From: a virus
Length of the DNA: 64,000 nt
IMG/VR virus record: IMGVR_UViG_3300033149_001989
Coordinates: 1 to 64,000 of that record
Strand: one strand, 5' to 3'
In this document: positions 49,065-62,969 of the stretch, piece by piece
Numbering within the stretch: position 1 is the first letter of the stretch
How the letters are laid out: the number at the start of each line of letters is the position of its first letter
The notes under the pieces: model-generated
Seen by the model: the letters and a program-made list of their open reading frames with translations, nothing else
What the model was told of the DNA's origin: nothing
Databases searched by the model: none
Made by a program: the position numbers and the translations under genes

Positions 49065-49529
49065 ATGACCGAAGCCAAAGCAAAAGCGGAGAGAGTGGAT
49101 AATAGCATCCGCCAAGAACAAGATGAAGTCGCTGAACAGCGCCGTAGGGGTAATTTGGCTTGGAGAATAGCAAGGGAAATTGATACGCTATCCTTTGATA
49201 AGGATGGTATTATTTTTATCACTGATTGTAAATTCTCCGATAATGACATCTTCTACATAGACAGCAATGACATTGCCAAAGGGTTGGATACTGCAATATC
49301 AATTCAGAATTGTGTAGATAGGTATGGTGTCCCAGTACAGTTTAGAGTTGATATGCACTTTCGTCGCCACAGGTCACGTAATCGTAAGTATATCGTCATT
49401 ACTGAAGCAGATAGAGGCTATTCAATCAAAGTTACCAGAGCTAAAAGAATTAGCACACAAAGAGTAAGCAAAGCAACGGAAGCGTCAAAGTCAGAGAATA
49501 AATTAGAAAGGAGGCACCAAATGAAATGA
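49065..49529 (+). CDS. Charged protein, unknown
   Basis: A 154-residue protein with a charged helical first 35 residues, a strand-rich middle and an Arg/Lys-rich end. GTAGAGGTGAGTT precedes the ATG. Its stop overlaps the start of the kinase-like gene, so translation is coupled. No motif recognised. Confidence 0.65.
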   Translation: MTEAKAKAERVDNSIRQEQDEVAEQRRRGNLAWRIAREIDTLSFDKDGIIFITDCKFSDNDIFYIDSNDIAKGLDTAISIQNCVDRYGVPVQFRVDMHFRRHRSRNRKYIVITEADRGYSIKVTRAKRISTQRVSKATEASKSENKLERRHQMK

Positions 49530-50203
49530 AGGCAAAAGTGATTTTGGAAGGGAAATCAATAAGCCCACCTCCAGGTACCCCTGTTGCTTCATCTCTAGAC
49601 AGCAGGTATGGTGGTGGCAGAAAAGGTAAAATTCTTGGTGTTCCAGTATGGCTTAAAGGAATTTCACCCACTTGCGAGAAGCTAAATTATGACCGTTCAC
49701 CATATTATGAAAGAGCGGCATATATTATTAGTGAAATGCTTGGTCTAAACCTTGTCCCGCCGACAATACTTTACTTACTAGAAGGCGAAGTAGTATCTGC
49801 TATGAAGTGGATGACTAGGGCAGAGGCTGCGTGGGATAGAGCAGAGGAAACCGACCCCCAGTGGAAACTGCGACTTGATGTATTTGATTATCTTATTGGT
49901 AACACTGACAGACATTGTGGCAACTGGTTAATCACGAAAACAGGTAGGGTGTGGGCGATTGATAATGCTTATGCTTTTAACTTTGCAAGTTATGATAATG
50001 GGCGTGGATATGGAGACGAATTTGACTTGAGAAAGGGAAGCAAATTGCCTACGAAGATTGTTCTAAAGATGCGGCAAACAGTGGAAAATCCAGATTACTT
50101 TCGTAGCCAACTGAATGGGTTGATAGATAAAGAAATAATAGAGGCTATCTTAAAAAGGATGGAGAAGATAGTAAAGAAAATAGAGAAAGGAGGTGCCGAG
50201 TGA
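49526..50203 (+). CDS. Kinase-fold protein (HipA / PI3-4-kinase-like)
   Basis: A 225-residue protein. VWLKGIS (Lys44) and the Glu near 62 resemble the ATP-binding Lys-Glu pair. FDYLIGNTDRHCGNWLI (119-135) carries the catalytic D-R-H-x-x-N motif. RVWAIDNAYAF (Asp146) is the metal-binding segment. This is the pattern of HipA- and PI3/4-kinase-like enzymes that phosphorylate proteins or lipids. It is short, so it probably has only the core. Targets unknown; a host protein is possible. It lies in a cluster of small zinc proteins. Confidence 0.8.
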   Translation: MKAKVILEGKSISPPPGTPVASSLDSRYGGGRKGKILGVPVWLKGISPTCEKLNYDRSPYYERAAYIISEMLGLNLVPPTILYLLEGEVVSAMKWMTRAEAAWDRAEETDPQWKLRLDVFDYLIGNTDRHCGNWLITKTGRVWAIDNAYAFNFASYDNGRGYGDEFDLRKGSKLPTKIVLKMRQTVENPDYFRSQLNGLIDKEIIEAILKRMEKIVKKIEKGGAE

Positions 50204-50709: not shown

Positions 50710-50922
50710 ATGGTATTAAAGGTAATCCCAATAGACGAACTAGAAAAGGCGGCGGAGAATAGGAAAAGAATAGAGGAACAACGCCGAAAAGAACCTTACT
50801 ACTGGTGGGAATATCCTGATGTTGAGTATAAACAAGAAGCCAGTAATCCAAGAGGGTTAGCACAAACTCGTAAAGAATTAAAAGAGAGAAATGAAAGGAG
50901 TAAAAATGGCAGAAATACGTAG
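50710..50922 (+). CDS. Small charged protein, unknown
   Basis: A 70-residue highly charged helical protein starting MVLKVIPIDELEKAAENRKR, with a WWEYPD segment in the middle. I start at ATG 50710, downstream of the promoter, with GAGAAGGAAAAG upstream. It overlaps the ATPase gene. Confidence 0.55.
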   Translation: MVLKVIPIDELEKAAENRKRIEEQRRKEPYYWWEYPDVEYKQEASNPRGLAQTRKELKERNERSKNGRNT

Positions 50923-52267
50923 ATTAACTGTTGAAAGTTCTTATTGTAAGAACTGGACTGTTGTTGATGCCCTGCGGGAACTGATACAAAATGCTTTAGA
51001 TACGAAAACAAAAGTTACTTTTAATAATTGCGGCAGTAAATTGTGGGAGATTAGAGATAGAGGTCAGGGATTAAAGTTAACAGACTTTCTAATTGGTAGG
51101 AGTTCAAAACAGTCAAATGACGGAGTAATTGGGCAGTTTGGTGAGGGTGCTCCTATTGGATGCTTAGTTCTTGCTCGTAATAACCGTAAGGTAACGGTGC
51201 AGTCACTGGGCAAACAGTATTCATTCTCCCTCCAGTATGATAACCAGTGGGAAACTGACTTGCTGACTATCAGTATTGACACTTGTGATACTGGTAGAGG
51301 GACAGGCGTATTTGTAGAGTGTAGTGAAGAGGAGATAAATTCGGCGAAACATTTATTTATGAAATTAAACCCACCACTTGTATTGCACAAAGTGAGGGCT
51401 TCTACATTCAAAGCAGATATTCTGGACTGCCCCAAAATTATATATGTTAACGGATTAGTCGTAACGCAAGTTGACTCTATGTTTGGTTACAATTTCTATG
51501 ATAAGTCTCTTGTAAACAGGGATAGAGCGGCAATCGGTTATGATGCTGTTAGAGGGCAAGTCGAGGCTACATTAAGTAACTTAACTAATCAATATTTAAT
51601 TGAGAAATTACTCAAAAGTGCGGTGGGTAATTCTGATAGTTCTTTTATTGAATTTAATGTTAATTTTAACCCACGAAGAAACGTTTGGCTTAGAGTAATT
51701 AGAGAATGTTTTGGTGATAGAGTATGTTTGAGTAGCAATCCAAAGGATGATTTAAGAGCTACAGAAGATAACTGGTCTGTCCTTAAAGTACCACTTAATT
51801 TTTGCTTTTCACTTGATTTTATTCTACCGTATTCTACTAAGGTTGGTGGCAAAGATAAAAAAATAATACCACAAAAAGATTTATCAATATCAGAAAAAAC
51901 TCTTCTTGCTAGAGGCAAAGCAATTGCGGATGAGGTGGCGAAAGAAGTTGGTTTAGATACATTTCCTATTAAAATATTTGAGGATACTATCTCGCAAGAT
52001 ATAAAACGATTTGACTGGAGAGGATACTATCATAATGGCACAGTCGGGGTAGCGTGGGAGTTGCTAAAAACTGGCAGTATTAGCGATGTGGTTAAAACTA
52101 TCCTACACGAGTACATTCACGGTACAAATGGACACGAAGATAATTCTAGGGCATTTGAAAATGACCTGTGCGATGTTATTGCAACTTTAGCCCTAACTTG
52201 GATAGCAGAGAAAAACAATAAAGCCAGATGGAGTGGATTAAACTATGCGTTACGAGATATGTCATAA
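50906..52267 (+). CDS. GHKL ATPase fused to a zincin-like HExxH domain
   Basis: A 453-residue protein. The N-terminal GHKL domain has LRELIQNALD (23-32, catalytic Glu and Mg-binding Asn), IRDRGQGL (G1 box) and GQFGEGAPIG (76-85, G2 box). The middle is unrecognised. The C-terminus has TILHEYIHGTNGHEDNSRAF, with HEYIH at 401-405 and possible third ligands His410 or Glu418. This combines an ATP-gated dimerising domain with a putative metalloprotease. I start at ATG 50906 (AAAGGAGTAAAA upstream). The combination suggests an ATP-controlled protease or effector; a role in host interaction is inference. Confidence 0.78.
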   Translation: MAEIRRLTVESSYCKNWTVVDALRELIQNALDTKTKVTFNNCGSKLWEIRDRGQGLKLTDFLIGRSSKQSNDGVIGQFGEGAPIGCLVLARNNRKVTVQSLGKQYSFSLQYDNQWETDLLTISIDTCDTGRGTGVFVECSEEEINSAKHLFMKLNPPLVLHKVRASTFKADILDCPKIIYVNGLVVTQVDSMFGYNFYDKSLVNRDRAAIGYDAVRGQVEATLSNLTNQYLIEKLLKSAVGNSDSSFIEFNVNFNPRRNVWLRVIRECFGDRVCLSSNPKDDLRATEDNWSVLKVPLNFCFSLDFILPYSTKVGGKDKKIIPQKDLSISEKTLLARGKAIADEVAKEVGLDTFPIKIFEDTISQDIKRFDWRGYYHNGTVGVAWELLKTGSISDVVKTILHEYIHGTNGHEDNSRAFENDLCDVIATLALTWIAEKNNKARWSGLNYALRDMS

Positions 52268-55591: not shown

Positions 55592-56506
55592 ATGATAACT
55601 TACCAAGATAAAAATCATTCACTATACGAAGGTTTGCCATTTATGGAAATTCGGGGGAATAGGATACCATTTCCCTGTTTTGCTGAGGTTAAACTCGATG
55701 GCGAATTTCAATACGTTATAAAAAATAAAGGTAAGGTATTCTTATTGAACAAAAGGGAGCACGGCAGAATACGAGAGGGTATGCCAATTACCAAGTTAGA
55801 TATTCCAGATAACACGATACTGTTAGGAGAATTAGTTTGGGGAGCAGGCAAATTCTTTTATGATTTTGCTAAACATAAATTGTCTCCAGATAACAATTTG
55901 GGAATATTTGGGTGCCTGCGGTGGGATGGTGAGGATATTTGGAAAACTAAAAATTATTTGGATGTTAGGAAATTTCTGGAAAGCCAGAAGTTTTATAATA
56001 GCAAAGTTGCTCTGACACCAAAAGCGATATGCCGAAACCAACAGGAACTAGATGGCTTTTTCAACAAAGTAGTTACTGCTGGTTATGAGGGGATTGTAAT
56101 TATAGACCCATATTCAAAGTTTGTAAATGGGGTAACAGTAAGACGAGCAAAGAAAAAGTTTGTTGCTGATAATGACTTTGTTATCATCGGCTTCCAAAAT
56201 GAAACGAAGCGAGCAAAAACACTTTCGGTTCTGGTGGGGCATAGAGTAAATGGTAAAGTTAAACGTTTATGCTATGTTGGTGGTGGGTTCACTTTAGAGC
56301 AAAAAAATACTTTATTAAGGGTTCTAAAGGATATGATTATCGCAAAGAATGGCGAAGAGTATTTAGTAGACCCCAAAATTATCATAACAGTAAAGCATTA
56401 TGGAATAATTAGGAATGATAAAGGTGAAGTTCACTCTTTACGCCATCCTCAATTCAAATGTTTTAGGTTAGATAAAGCAGTAAACCAGATAGATACAATT
56501 AGGTGA
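55592..56506 (+). CDS. ATP-dependent polynucleotide ligase
   Basis: A 304-residue ligase of the covalent nucleotidyltransferase superfamily. Motif I is EVKLDGEF (adenylated Lys34). Motif III-like GELVWG holds Glu80. Motif IV is AGYEGIVII, and motif V is in RAKKKFVADNDFVIIGF. An OB-fold follows to the end. The usual KxDGxR has Glu in place of Arg. It seals DNA or RNA nicks using ATP. With the Ku gene at 58217 it could join double-strand ends. ATG 55592 has TGAGG upstream. Confidence 0.83.
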   Translation: MITYQDKNHSLYEGLPFMEIRGNRIPFPCFAEVKLDGEFQYVIKNKGKVFLLNKREHGRIREGMPITKLDIPDNTILLGELVWGAGKFFYDFAKHKLSPDNNLGIFGCLRWDGEDIWKTKNYLDVRKFLESQKFYNSKVALTPKAICRNQQELDGFFNKVVTAGYEGIVIIDPYSKFVNGVTVRRAKKKFVADNDFVIIGFQNETKRAKTLSVLVGHRVNGKVKRLCYVGGGFTLEQKNTLLRVLKDMIIAKNGEEYLVDPKIIITVKHYGIIRNDKGEVHSLRHPQFKCFRLDKAVNQIDTIR

Positions 56507-56534
56507 CATAAAATACAAACGTAGATGGCATTGG

Positions 56535-56810
56535 ATGAAACCAAGAGGCGACACAAATTGTAATGATTGTCCAAGACGTTTTGAGTGCTTTACTGGTAAA
56601 GGTGAAGCTTGCCCGACTATAAATGGTAGTGAGATAACCTATTGTTATCCTTGCTACAATAATGTTTGTATTGGGCTTAGTAAAGATGATACTAATGTAT
56701 TTTGGAAATATAGAATAACACCCGACCAAATGCTAAAGTTGGTACAACGAGCTAAGTTTCGCACTTACAAGAAATATAATAGAATTTATTTAGAGGTATT
56801 AGATGAGTAA
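56535..56810 (+). CDS. Small protein with the C-x2-C-x5-C motif
   Basis: A 91-residue protein with NCNDCPRRFECFTGKGEACP, a textbook copy of the recurring motif, at residues 8-27. Further Cys pairs (YCYPCYNNVC) follow. It overlaps the next gene. Function unknown. Confidence 0.65.
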   Translation: MKPRGDTNCNDCPRRFECFTGKGEACPTINGSEITYCYPCYNNVCIGLSKDDTNVFWKYRITPDQMLKLVQRAKFRTYKKYNRIYLEVLDE

Positions 56811-57132
56811 AGGCAGTGTTGTAAATCCAAAAGATGTTGTCATCAAAGTTACTGAGATAGAAGATGAAAAAGGTAAGCCAATTGTAGTAGTACTTCCTGT
56901 TGCTGCTGGTGGCAGGAAAGAATTGTGGATAATGTCTGATGTTCGTTGTATGGATAAGGACACCGATGTTTGTAATAAATGCCGTCTGCGTTATCAATGT
57001 TATAGTGGTAATGTTCTCAAGATAGATTATCTTGATACATTTGACCCCAATGATTTAACTCCTTTGAGCAGGAAGATTGAAGCACATTTAAGACGGTACA
57101 AACCAGAGGTTGACAGTAAGCAGGGCAAGTGA
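56803..57132 (+). CDS. Small protein with the C-x2-C-x5-C motif
   Basis: A 109-residue protein with DVCNKCRLRYQCYSGNVL near residue 56. The N-terminal half is strand-rich (KPIVVVLPVAAGG). It is followed by a promoter for the next gene inside its own 3' end. Function unknown. Confidence 0.65.
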   Translation: MSKGSVVNPKDVVIKVTEIEDEKGKPIVVVLPVAAGGRKELWIMSDVRCMDKDTDVCNKCRLRYQCYSGNVLKIDYLDTFDPNDLTPLSRKIEAHLRRYKPEVDSKQGK

Positions 57133-57138
57133 TATAAT
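57110..57138 (+). promoter_or_regulatory. Consensus sigma70-type promoter
   Basis: TTGACA, 17 bases, TATAAT on the plus strand, inside the 3' end of the previous gene. The ATG at 57147 lies nine bases after the -10 box, so the leader is nearly absent. Confidence 0.8.
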
Positions 57139-57146
57139 TAGGTAGA

Positions 57147-57860
57147 ATGAAGTTTTATTGTAATCGCTGTAAATCTGCATTTACCACTTTCAGTAAAGAG
57201 GGTGGTGAAGCCAAGAGGAAAGAAAGGGAGTTTGCCTTTTCTCACGGAATTGAGAATAAAATGAGATGCCCAAAGTGTGGTGCATCTAATCCGCCCACAA
57301 GACTTGCTAACCCAAAGTATCAAAAACACTACCGCACAAGGTACCAACCGAAGCCAAGATATGCTACTGGTGAAGAAGATTATACTCCACCAACGATTAT
57401 CTTGCATCCAGATTGTCAAAAACGGATAATTAGTTCGGTGGGCAGTATTGGTGGTATGAAGGTTGTTTGTGAAGGATGCCCCCAAGTATTTAACTGCTGG
57501 ACTGGAAATGTTGATGATGGGTTGTGTAGCGAAATAAAGGCACCCGATGCGGACAAGGTAAAAGAAGCAACCAAAGCAATTGTTGAGCAAGATAAAATTT
57601 TGCTACAACTACAGAAGCAGCGAGCAGTATTTGGCAAAGTGAAATTCGGTTATGAAAGCAGAAACGGTTGCTGGTATTGTCGATTCGGGGGTACAGTTTG
57701 GAAGTTAGATACTAGTGACATTGAAGCGATAAAGAGTGGTAATTTTGGCACAAAAAAGACCACAATCATCAGGAATTCCCTGAAAAATAAGAAATTATCA
57801 CTAGCTGCGGTTACGTCACTACTGTTATTAGAGATGGAAGTGGCATCAAGTGGGCGTTGA
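57147..57860 (+). CDS. Multi-zinc protein with a variant C-x2-C-x5-C motif
   Basis: A 237-residue protein. It starts with FYCNRCKSAF and MRCPKCGASN (a zinc ribbon), then VVCEGCPQVFNCWTGNVD (motif variant with Val in place of Arg) near residue 110. Its C-terminal half has GCWYCRFGGTVWKLDTSDIE and a basic helix. The mRNA appears almost leaderless. Function unknown; nucleic acid binding is likely from the composition. Confidence 0.68.
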   Translation: MKFYCNRCKSAFTTFSKEGGEAKRKEREFAFSHGIENKMRCPKCGASNPPTRLANPKYQKHYRTRYQPKPRYATGEEDYTPPTIILHPDCQKRIISSVGSIGGMKVVCEGCPQVFNCWTGNVDDGLCSEIKAPDADKVKEATKAIVEQDKILLQLQKQRAVFGKVKFGYESRNGCWYCRFGGTVWKLDTSDIEAIKSGNFGTKKTTIIRNSLKNKKLSLAAVTSLLLLEMEVASSGR

Positions 57861-57886
57861 CATCTGCCCAAGGCTCGTGATATAAT
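57857..57886 (+). promoter_or_regulatory. Consensus sigma70-type promoter (18-base spacer)
   Basis: TTGACA, 18 bases, TATAAT on the plus strand, ending 11 bases before ATG 57898, directly ahead of the Cys-motif gene and Ku. Confidence 0.8.
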
Positions 57887-57897
57887 GTAAGTGTAAA

Positions 57898-58230
57898 ATG
57901 AAAACCAGAGAAAATGATTTTGAGCATTATGTAAAGTGTCATTGTGGCTGGGAAGGGTTCTCCGCATGGATGATACACGGTTATGAGGGGTATGGGCACG
58001 GTGAAGATTGTGATGTTGAACCGATGGATTACTGCCCAAAATGTCGCACACCAGAAATAATGGTTGAGGCAATAGTTGAATGTCACGGTGATTGTCTGAA
58101 TTGCTCAGATAGGTTTCTATGCTTGACTGTGTTCGACAAGTTGCCTGTCCTACGGAAACATTATGACGAAGACTCTCGTCAAAAAAGCAATACCAAATTC
58201 TATAAAGGAGAGGATAATGGCAAGAAGTAG
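57898..58230 (+). CDS. Protein with the C-x2-C-x5-C motif, upstream of Ku
   Basis: A 110-residue protein with KCHCGWEG and YCPKCRTPE (a zinc ribbon) and CHGDCLNCSDRFLCLTVF (the recurring motif with extension) near residue 63. Its end overlaps the Ku gene by 14 bases, so the two are coupled. Function unknown. Confidence 0.68.
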   Translation: MKTRENDFEHYVKCHCGWEGFSAWMIHGYEGYGHGEDCDVEPMDYCPKCRTPEIMVEAIVECHGDCLNCSDRFLCLTVFDKLPVLRKHYDEDSRQKSNTKFYKGEDNGKK

Positions 58231-58972
58231 GGGATTTAAAATGTCTATTGCTGTTGGTGGAATGTTTTTAATTCCTGTTAGATTAGATAAAACCACCAGT
58301 GATAGCAAAATCAGCCTCCACGAATATCATAAAGATGATATGGGTAGCAGTGGTCGCAAGGCTTACTGTAAGTCTTGTGGTAAAGACCTAACCTCAGCTG
58401 ATATTGTTAAGGGTATTGAGGTAACGAAGGGGCAAGTGGTAACATTCTCTAAAGAGGAACTGGAAAGCCTACCACTAAGTACCACCAAGAATATTGAAGT
58501 TGACGGGTTTGTTAAGGCTGAGGAAATAAATCGTCTTGCTCTCGGCACTTCTTATTACCTTAGCCCTGATGAAACAAGCTCTCAGGCGTATAATCTGTTC
58601 GCACACGGGTTGAAGAAAATGGGTAGAGTTGCGGTGGGAAAGGTTGCTTTACGTAATCGTGAGAACTTGTGTATTGTCTATCCGATGAGTGGTGGTTTGG
58701 TACTTTCTATGATGTGCTGGCACGATGAATTCAAGGATAATCCATCAATTCCCAAGACAGAAATTACCGACACTCAGGCAGACCTGATGGATGTTATCAT
58801 CAAGAAGTATTCTAAACCATTTGACCATAGCGTGTATAGTGACCAGTATAATGATGCTTTAAAGAAGATGGCTGAACAAAAACTTAATGGTGATATTATC
58901 ACAATCAGCACTCCACAGGAACAGCAACCTCAAAATATTGAGGACGCCCTGAGAGCATTGGCTGCAGCATAG
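58217..58972 (+). CDS. ku: Ku-family DNA end-binding protein
   Basis: A 251-residue Ku core. It starts MARSRGFKMSIAVGGMFLIP, has CKSCGKDLTSADIVKGIEVT, FSKEELESLPL, IEVDGFVKAEEINRLALGTS, YYLSPDETSSQAYNLF and GRVAVGKVALRNRENLCIVY, which are the conserved blocks of the bacterial Ku beta-barrel. It ends in a short Gln/Pro-rich tail rather than a long basic one. It binds double-strand ends as a homodimer and recruits a ligase. I start at ATG 58217 (AAAGGAGAGGATA). Ku has been described in a few actinobacterial phages, where it aids genome circularisation. Confidence 0.92.
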   Translation: MARSRGFKMSIAVGGMFLIPVRLDKTTSDSKISLHEYHKDDMGSSGRKAYCKSCGKDLTSADIVKGIEVTKGQVVTFSKEELESLPLSTTKNIEVDGFVKAEEINRLALGTSYYLSPDETSSQAYNLFAHGLKKMGRVAVGKVALRNRENLCIVYPMSGGLVLSMMCWHDEFKDNPSIPKTEITDTQADLMDVIIKKYSKPFDHSVYSDQYNDALKKMAEQKLNGDIITISTPQEQQPQNIEDALRALAAA

Positions 58973-60262: not shown

Positions 60263-61444
60263 ATGGAAAATATTGAACTCGTCAAATTATTGTTGCTTCA
60301 ATGCGGCAAAGTAGGAATTACACCAATGCTTTGGGGGCGTCACGGTATTGGTAAAAGTATGATTGTGAGGAGCATCTTTGAGGATGGGGGATATGAGGTT
60401 ATTGACCTTAGACTTGGACAGTTAGAAGTTGGTGACCTTATTGGTATGCCTGCTCAGGAATACTACTGTCCAAGTTGTAAAACAAAGTTTGGTTTTGCGG
60501 CTCGGTTCACTAATTGTCCTCTTTGCGAACAGAAAGGTGGTAAAGTTCCCATTTGCGGACAGACTGTTTGGTTACCCCCAAGTTGGTTTCCACAGCATGG
60601 CGAGAAGCGGTGCATCTTCTTTGACGAATTCAATCGTGGTCGGTTAGATGTTCAGCAGGCTGCTTTTCAGATTGTTCTTGACCGCAGAATACATACTCAC
60701 AAAATTCCTGATGATACCATTATCATTTGTGCCTGTAACCCACCATCAAGTGATGCAGGCACTGGTCAGGAATATAATGTTGAAGAACTTGACCCCGCCC
60801 TGCTAGACCGATTTGTGAATATTAAATTCACTTTAACTACTGATAACTGGTTACGGTGGGCACGAGAGAATAAAATCTTACAAGATATTATAGATTTTAT
60901 TGCTACTGAGCAGAAATTTCTCGGCAATGATGCAATAGATATTCCTATTGATATTACACCCTCTCCACGCTCCTACGAATTTCTGTCTAAACTGCTCTCT
61001 GGCGATACAATTCCTAAACGATACTGGACAGAGGTTGCTGAAACGGTAATTGGGTCAACTGCGGCTATTGCGTTTGTTCAATCCTTAAAGACTGATTTGG
61101 ATAAACCAATTAAGGCTAAAGACATATTTGACCATTTCGCTAAGGTTAAGAGTAAGGTTGAGGCTCAGGTTGGAACTGCGGATGATGGAAACGCTAGATT
61201 TGACTTACTCAGACTTACTCTTGATGAAATCACCCAATGTCTTGAGAATGATAAAAGCAGAAAGTATAATGAAAAACAACTTAATAATCTGGCTGATTTC
61301 CTTGTTATGCTTCCACAAGACTTGTCATTCTCTATGATTAAAGACTTGGCTACTAACCAAGATGTAAATGAGCGGCTGTTCCTTAATCGTGATGATTTGT
61401 TTACAATCCTAAAGACTGCTCGTAAAGGTGATATGAATGGCTAA
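60263..61444 (+). CDS. MoxR-type AAA+ ATPase with inserted zinc ribbon
   Basis: A 393-residue AAA+ ATPase. Walker A is LWGRHGIGKSM (23-33), Walker B is CIFFDEFNRG, and sensor 1 is IICACNPPSSD, followed by LDPALLDRFVNI. Between Walker A and B it has an insertion with YCPSCKTKFGF and NCPLCEQKGG (zinc ribbon). MoxR ATPases remodel protein complexes with a VWA partner, which is encoded next (overlap of eight bases). Its target in the phage cycle is unknown. Confidence 0.88.
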   Translation: MENIELVKLLLLQCGKVGITPMLWGRHGIGKSMIVRSIFEDGGYEVIDLRLGQLEVGDLIGMPAQEYYCPSCKTKFGFAARFTNCPLCEQKGGKVPICGQTVWLPPSWFPQHGEKRCIFFDEFNRGRLDVQQAAFQIVLDRRIHTHKIPDDTIIICACNPPSSDAGTGQEYNVEELDPALLDRFVNIKFTLTTDNWLRWARENKILQDIIDFIATEQKFLGNDAIDIPIDITPSPRSYEFLSKLLSGDTIPKRYWTEVAETVIGSTAAIAFVQSLKTDLDKPIKAKDIFDHFAKVKSKVEAQVGTADDGNARFDLLRLTLDEITQCLENDKSRKYNEKQLNNLADFLVMLPQDLSFSMIKDLATNQDVNERLFLNRDDLFTILKTARKGDMNG

Positions 61445-62969
61445 TAGTGAACTAATTGAGAGTGAAGTAATTGAACTATTGCTAGAGGGAAAGCACTTTT
61501 ATGGGCACTTCCTCCAGCAGTTTCGTAGACACGCTGTTAAAACAGGTATAGGTGAGGGCAATATCGTAGACACTCTTGGTGTTCTTATCAATGAGGATTT
61601 ACAACCTCACCTATACATAAATACTGATTTTTATAATAGTGGTGATTATGACCCAAAAAATCCTGCAAAACATAGTTGGGGGCTAACGCCAACTGAGAAG
61701 ATTGCTTTATTGGAACACGAAATACTGCATATTCTAAACAAGCATTTAATTCGCACCGAAAATCGTAATCACTATGTTGCTAATCTTGCCCAAGACCTAG
61801 CAATCAATCAGCATATCAAGGGGCTACCAAAGGGCGGTGGTTGTCCAAAGTGTAATGCTTTTGTAAGACTTACTCAGTTGGGACAGTTTAGAACTACTTG
61901 CCCTAGGTGTGGTGAGCTGCTTGACCCAAAGAAACATACATCAGAATGCCTCGATATTGGTAATTTTAAGATAGAGGGTAAAAAGTTAAATTTTGAACGA
62001 AACAAAGCGTTTGAGATTTATTACGATGCTCTCTGGAGTAAAATGCCAAAGTATATGGTAGAAATTGGAACTGCCATTACTGATAGTAAAGAAAAAGGTG
62101 CTAAAAGCAATATCAAGGGAGAATGTTCTGGTGGTACGGGTGATGGCACTTACAAGCAGAAAGAAGCTCAGGATAGTGAGAATAAGAATAAGGTTGGTTC
62201 AGGAAACAATGTTCAGATACAGGGTGTAGAAATACCAATGCCAATGGACAACCACGAAACTTGGGCTGCTGGTTCTGATAATCGGGAGATGGCTCACGAG
62301 AAAATAAAAGAAATGGCAAGGAAGGCGCTGCACAAAGCAAATGCTAAAAATCAGGGTAATATGCCAGGATGGTTGAAATCTCTTGTTGACCAATGCCTAG
62401 CACACAAGACAATCAGTTGGAAATCAGAACTGAAAAGGTTTTACGGTTTTCGGGAATTTTCGCACTTTGTCCCCACTCGAAAGAGGCTCAACCGCAGGTT
62501 TAGTATTGCATTCCCAGGCTACAAAGTTAAGCGGAAAGCACATATTGTCGTAGCGACGGATAGTTCGGGCAGTGTTTCTGATGAAGATTTTGCTAAATTT
62601 TGGGCAGAGATTATGACTATGTTCTCTGCTGGTGTTACCATAACTCACGTTGAATGTGATATGGATATTACTCACGTTCAACCATTCAAGAGAAAGCCAC
62701 CAAAAAATACTAAGATAAAGCGTTATGGATATGGTGGAACTACATTCAAACCACCATTTGAATTGGTAGAAAAAGGTCATTACAAGAATGGTAATGGTGA
62801 GGAATGGAAGTTAAAAACCAAAGTGGATGGTATCATCTATTGCACTGATGGTTATGGTGATTTTCCTAAGAAGATACCTTGTCCTACGATATGGGTTGTC
62901 ACGGCTGAACATAGCACTCACGGTTGGAGTCCAAAACTTGGTAAAATGATTGTGATGACAGAGGACTAA
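61437..62969 (+). CDS. VWA and HExxH putative metallopeptidase, MoxR partner (DUF2201-like)
   Basis: A 510-residue protein. The N-terminal part has IALLEHEILHILNKHLI (HEILH at 94-98) and a zinc-ribbon CPKC/CPRC insertion. A low-complexity Gly/Lys linker follows near 225-290. The C-terminal VWA-like domain has a metal site in VVATDSSGSVSDEDF and YGGTTFKPP and ends with IIYCTDGYGDFP. This is the layout of DUF2201-type putative metallopeptidases paired with MoxR ATPases. The two could form an ATP-driven chaperone/protease pair. Confidence 0.85.
   Translation: MANSELIESEVIELLLEGKHFYGHFLQQFRRHAVKTGIGEGNIVDTLGVLINEDLQPHLYINTDFYNSGDYDPKNPAKHSWGLTPTEKIALLEHEILHILNKHLIRTENRNHYVANLAQDLAINQHIKGLPKGGGCPKCNAFVRLTQLGQFRTTCPRCGELLDPKKHTSECLDIGNFKIEGKKLNFERNKAFEIYYDALWSKMPKYMVEIGTAITDSKEKGAKSNIKGECSGGTGDGTYKQKEAQDSENKNKVGSGNNVQIQGVEIPMPMDNHETWAAGSDNREMAHEKIKEMARKALHKANAKNQGNMPGWLKSLVDQCLAHKTISWKSELKRFYGFREFSHFVPTRKRLNRRFSIAFPGYKVKRKAHIVVATDSSGSVSDEDFAKFWAEIMTMFSAGVTITHVECDMDITHVQPFKRKPPKNTKIKRYGYGGTTFKPPFELVEKGHYKNGNGEEWKLKTKVDGIIYCTDGYGDFPKKIPCPTIWVVTAEHSTHGWSPKLGKMIVMTED

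Follow-up and report, generated by a model that had tools for sequence, protein, structure and literature searches.

Ku and a compact ATP-dependent DNA ligase in an uncultured bacteriophage family: a candidate two-protein end-joining module

In the surveyed literature, viral Ku is limited to mycobacteriophages and a single Streptomyces phage (PMC11936186); in the mycobacteriophages it is linked to the LigD of the host. Among these, Corndog, with a fixed 3′ overhang of 4 bases at its genome ends, has been proposed to use its Ku for circularisation (PMC4351075; see also PMC3706429), and the Ku of Cluster J carries an Lsr2-like tail (PMC3706429). Non-homologous end joining (NHEJ) with Ku and a separate ligase gene is established in archaea (PMC4797286). 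The DNA analysed here (the window) is a stretch of 64,000 nucleotides, that is, positions 1–64,000 of the 133,760-bp virus record IMGVR_UViG_3300033149_001989 (G000), in which a Ku gene and the gene of a small ATP-dependent DNA ligase lie close together on the same strand and may form an end-joining pair. Scans of viral contigs with both proteins found four further related virus records: G001 (152,753 bp), G002 (148,197 bp), G003 (66,524 bp) and G004 (138,618 bp). Together they represent a family of large phages, all uncultured, in which Ku and the small DNA ligase always occur together (5/5 records). A near-identity search with the Ku/ligase region gave no match among named phages, searching with Ku and ligase of the G004 type gave no additional records, and a broad alignment of nine Ku members, meant for a viral scan, contained no sufficiently conserved stretch.

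Comparison with known end-joining systems

The Ku of the mycobacteriophages (Omega and MiaZeal of Cluster J, Corndog and Firecracker of Cluster O) is, like that of this family, bacterial in type and of similar size, and the two are about 28–31% identical, although they belong to separate lineages. As in this family, these phages are not reported to encode a polymerase or phosphoesterase themselves. The difference lies in the ligase: in nine whole records of Ku-bearing mycobacteriophages, two of which are probably the same phage (thus probably eight phages), no ATP-dependent DNA ligase was found with PF01068 (run on MiaZeal and Firecracker) or with phrog_114 (run on seven Cluster J contigs and Firecracker). 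The contrast drawn in the original prediction with Ku phages that rely on host LigD therefore holds, in agreement with the published accounts (PMC4351075, PMC3706429, PMC7719229), and the pairing of Ku with a ligase of its own sets the family apart from the classical viral case. In addition, the fixed ends with a short overhang that characterise the Omega/Corndog type are not seen here, as judged indirectly from assemblies that close at three different positions.

Among cellular systems, the NHEJ set of the archaeon Methanocella paludicola, with separate genes for Ku, ligase, polymerase and phosphoesterase, shares with the family the separate ligase and Ku, but the phages are without the LigD-type polymerase and phosphoesterase. 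The bacterial Ku-LigD system is similar in that the phage Ku passes the cut-off of the Ku_bact equivalog and that the model nearest to the phage ligase is the one for the LigD ligase domain; it differs in that the phage ligase stands alone, scores far under the cut-offs of the LigD family and is joined to no polymerase or phosphoesterase. Compact ligases are also encoded by Aeromonas phage 4L372XY and Rhizobium phage RHph_N1_10, with 23–26% identity over the adenylation and OB domains, but, unlike in this family, tblastn gave no Ku match in either record. The set is filed here as a putative variant of phage NHEJ, and neither with the LigD family, because the ligase stays under its cut-off, nor with the Omega/Corndog type, because of the contig ends.

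The Ku and ligase genes

The Ku gene (58217–58972, + strand) encodes 251 amino acids, comprising the core and the conserved minimal C-terminal region but not the basic extended tail. Both its identity and its coordinates agree with what had been predicted: it matches PF02735 (E = 5e-38, 131 bits against a cut-off of 25) and phrog_4873 Ku (E = 1e-42), and over the full core and minimal C-terminus it passes the curated cut-off of 150 of TIGR02772 Ku_bact, with 196.9 bits and a second value of 233.8. The start at 58217 is preceded by a strong Shine-Dalgarno sequence, TAAAGGAGAGGATAATG, and agrees with the MA- start that is conserved among the relatives, so that the longer open reading frame (ORF) from 58163 is considered spurious and was rejected as the Ku start. 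At the C-terminus, YxDxY and the terminal N-x2-D-x-L of the minimal region are retained, while the basic tail of bacterial Ku is absent. The best Foldseek matches of a structure model, itself of moderate quality (pLDDT 60, TM about 0.45), are the Ku of B. subtilis and M. tuberculosis (E = 6e-16).

The relatives' Ku proteins are 59% (G001), 59% (G002), 56% (G003) and 44% (G004) identical to the window copy. Maximum-likelihood analysis places the six Ku of the family in one monophyletic group (100/100), separate from both mycobacteriophage Ku and the cellular Ku that was sampled. The sixth member is a short contig of a related phage (L054, PUNI01000206.1), which was binned into a Rhodobacteraceae metagenome-assembled genome and carries Ku without a ligase, because it begins downstream of the expected ligase position. 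All other Ku matches in named phage records belong to mycobacteriophages, apart from one unannotated, bacterial-looking record. This gut record (MT838252.1, L024, 'Bacteriophage sp.' in GenBank) was rejected as a Ku phage, since the remaining ORFs of MT838252 look bacterial, like those of an actinobacterial chromosomal fragment.

The ligase gene (55592–56506, + strand) encodes 304 amino acids and consists of the adenylation and OB domains only. The motifs ascribed to it earlier are present and are complemented by motif VI: the residues are K34 (motif I), E80 (III), E166 (IV), K187 and K189 (V), and R292 and K295 (VI). Motifs I (KLDG), III, IV, V and VI (RxDK) are invariant in position across the five homologues and can be recognised by eye. 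PF01068 (adenylation domain, E = 3e-7) and PF04679 (DNA ligase OB domain, E = 1e-6) are each matched above the gathering cut-off, phrog_114 (ATP-dependent DNA ligase) is matched with E = 2e-20, and solved archaeal-type DNA ligases are matched with E of about 1e-14, or 1e-21 when the family profile is used. The presence of the OB domain and of motif VI marks the protein as a DNA-type ligase, and the same two features disfavour an enzyme active on RNA only. The relatives' ligases are 60% (G001), 53% (G002), 56% (G003) and 56% (G004) identical to it. With a pLDDT of 44, the ligase structure predicted by AlphaFold is unusable.

The linkage of the two genes on one strand, which had been noticed in the window, recurs in all five records, each with one copy of both genes in the same order, 1.5–2.7 kb apart. 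Since both are found again in four further virus records, their occurrence is not due to chance. Moreover, in the closest pair of records (G002 and G003), the rates of nonsynonymous (dN) and synonymous (dS) substitution are 0.13 and 0.79 for Ku (dN/dS about 0.16), and 0.08 and 0.93 for the ligase (dN/dS about 0.09). Such low ratios, indicating purifying selection, show that Ku and ligase are maintained as functional genes.

End joining and the competing readings

The reading we prefer is that Ku and the ligase constitute a virus-encoded two-component NHEJ module that rejoins breaks in phage DNA, to which we give a probability of about 0.45, the cooperation of the two proteins being the part that we infer. 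It would work as follows: a predicted Ku homodimer would thread onto and bridge the double-strand ends of phage DNA, and the adenylation-OB ligase, stimulated through the Ku core and minimal C-terminal region, would seal compatible or blunt ends. The substrates would be clean ends, for instance the products of restriction enzymes, other defence nucleases or homing endonucleases, while dirty ends would be left to recombination. The restriction to clean ends would follow from the lack of LigD-type processing enzymes: the LigD-type 3′-phosphoesterase (PF13298) was found in none of the five records, and the LigD-type primase-polymerase (PF21686) was not found in G000 or G002–G004 and gave in G001 one match of 11 bits, below the cut-off. 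The five records are also without a NAD-dependent ligase (PF01653). The primase of G000 is of the DnaG type.

That a Ku with a minimal C-terminus beside a bare adenylation-OB ligase might act as a two-protein joiner of clean breaks is mechanistically plausible by analogy with M. tuberculosis, where the minimal C-terminus of Ku is the main C-terminal feature stimulating break ligation and suffices for it, and where a Ku deprived of its extended tail enhances the sealing of nicks by the LigD ligase domain on its own (PMC9638933). The position of the ligase also speaks for this reading, as the gene lies beside Ku and away from the replication genes; in G000 the replication cluster (DnaG-type primase, DnaB, DNA polymerase A, RecA and a RecB-like nuclease, at about 101–125 kb) is on the opposite strand, 45–70 kb from ligase and Ku. 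The co-occurrence of the two genes in 5/5 records, the purifying selection on both, the lack of such a ligase in the other Ku phages tested and the archaeal precedent for a separate NHEJ ligase are further points in its favour. More tentatively, the module could be a self-sufficient minimal NHEJ, Ku with a dedicated ligase, serving counter-defence by rejoining the genome after cleavage by host nucleases. If this is true, a separate phage lineage in which Ku is invariably paired with a phage ligase would demonstrate NHEJ as a complete function of a virus; a minimal end-joining system of two proteins would become available for study, and the use of NHEJ by phages against restriction or CRISPR cleavage could be put to the test.

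Several points weigh against a dedicated joining module. The whole neighbourhood is syntenic among the records, so linkage alone is weak evidence, and the five records amount effectively to one evolutionary lineage. In motif IV the window ligase reads EGIVII, where the four relatives have EGxxxK, the exchange of Ile for Lys being confined to the window copy. TIGR02779 (NHEJ_ligase_lig) is, in favour of the module, the top NCBIfam model of the ligase in the 3/3 members tested (E = 4e-18 to 2e-25), but the scores of 66–90 bits are far under the curated cut-off of 227.75. In the ligase tree, a long branch leads to the single clade of the family, which is separate from LigB and LigE and has no clear place among LigD, LigC and a Rhizobium phage ligase. 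Finally, this ligase is the sole DNA ligase of the family's phages, so it must be able to serve replication too.

This last point leads to the main rival reading, in which Ku recruits host LigD, the compact ligase is an ordinary replicative nick sealer and the proximity of the two genes is incidental. There is published precedent for phage Ku acting with host LigD in Omega and Corndog (PMC7719229, PMC4351075, PMC3706429), and there are phages with an annotated compact ATP-dependent DNA ligase but without a Ku match in their records. Nevertheless, this explanation is considered less probable than the module, because in 5/5 records the two genes stay close together and distant from the replication cluster, and because Ku occurs in just 11 of 60 genomes sampled from one bacterial phylum, so that host LigD is not to be taken for granted. 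In the Rhodobacteraceae genome that contains L054, the only ligase is of the LigB type and the sole Ku is that of the phage, although binning is not evidence of a host. The recruitment of host LigD and a joining module of Ku with the phage ligase are not mutually exclusive.

As to the genome ends, the records can be superimposed as rotations of a single circular map. In G000, taken as a complete circular-mapping genome, a direct overlap of 114 bp (1–114 and 133647–133760) falls inside the tail tape-measure gene; when the ends are joined, a reading frame opens across the junction and aligns with the tail gene of G001 except for the duplicated overlap. Overlaps are found elsewhere in G004 (97 bp) and G001 (193 bp, with 191 matches), so the contigs that close on themselves, three in number, are each opened at another point of the map. 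A conserved cos site would not produce this pattern, which implies that there is no common, fixed cohesive end. The records are circular-mapping, near complete and without a shared physical end, on strong but indirect evidence. Packaging is probably circularly permuted, as read indirectly from contig closure in assemblies, and assembly from intracellular concatemers could produce the same end pattern. A comparison of terminases was uninformative about the packaging type, the nearest matches being just 22–25% identical. DNA that is permuted and terminally redundant would become circular through homologous recombination, and RecA is available to the phages for this. Hence break repair and end protection during infection are a more likely role of the module than circularisation.

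It is improbable, though in keeping with these ends, that Ku acts like Mu Gam as an end-protection factor which shields the ends of linear or broken phage DNA from nucleases of the RecBCD/AddAB type without joining them. Gam is a Ku homologue protecting the ends of Mu (PMC1378119), permuted linear phage DNA would have ends in need of protection, and the RecA route is available to the phages; on the other side, the family Ku retains the C-terminal region that is tied to ligase stimulation (PMC9638933), and the ligase always adjoins Ku. Least of all is it to be expected that the injected genome closes into a circle through short cohesive ends joined by Ku and the self-encoded ligase. A role of Ku in circularisation has been proposed for Corndog (PMC4351075, PMC3706429), and circularisation was the first suggestion made for this locus; against it, overlaps of 114, 97 and about 193 bp close the contigs at three different map positions, and RecA is encoded. 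The joining of breaks by Ku and the phage ligase thus remains the preferred reading, with their joint action and the kind of break that serves as substrate stated as what we would expect.

Neighbouring genes and other observations

Four genes lie between the ligase and Ku, all on the + strand. The neighbour found most consistently just upstream of Ku is a Zn-ribbon-like protein with a Cys motif (57147–57860), 38–46% identical in 4/4 relatives. Like this protein, a Cys-motif protein at 56803–57132 has a homologue between ligase and Ku in 5/5 records, and for the small Cys-motif protein at 56535–56810 (CNDCPRRFECFTG) a homologue was detected in G002 only. The Cys-motif protein at 57898–58230, which overlaps the start of Ku and had been proposed as a further partner of it, has a detectable homologue in G004 only (1/4 relatives) and is therefore not a conserved partner; the Cys motif is common to about 33 phage proteins. 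This motif, C-x2-C-x3-[FY]-x-C (CxxCxxRFxC[FYW][TS]), has 33 sites in the phage of the window (window 41090–64729 and the record up to 116835) and 54, 36, 24 and 50 in the four relatives, against 0–4 in reversed-sequence controls, and it occurs in many small, otherwise unrelated proteins.

The RNA repair set differs among the members. An RtcB-like RNA ligase is located upstream of the DNA ligase in G001–G003 (L006 4785–5963, L007 6141–7327, L009 4582–5745) and not in G000 or G004, and an Rnl-like RNA ligase is additionally present in G002–G004. The record of the window contains a second nucleotidyltransferase (record 84372–85499), which is RNA-ligase-like, with PF09414 below the cut-off, and adjoins a CCA-adding/poly(A) polymerase, the two together covering record 84372–86937 (L003 4372–6937).

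With respect to possible sources of double-strand breaks, homing endonucleases may be considered: intein and LAGLIDADG signals interrupt a DruA-like (DUF4338) protein and LAGLIDADG interrupts a metallophosphoesterase (record 102879–104924 and 107916–109664). Downstream of Ku, at 60263–62969, a MoxR-like AAA ATPase (phrog_1297) is followed by a DUF2201 metallopeptidase-VWA protein, whose PHROG label 'HNH endonuclease' looks misannotated; the VWA protein of G002 is interrupted by an intein-looking insertion (L007 13560–16313). Upstream of the ligase, a short kinase-like protein (49526–50203) matches the PI3/PI4-kinase and HipA-type families, and the protein at 50891–52267 has weak similarity to the ATP-binding (GHKL) domains of the sacsin/MutL type and is kept in G001, G003 and G004.

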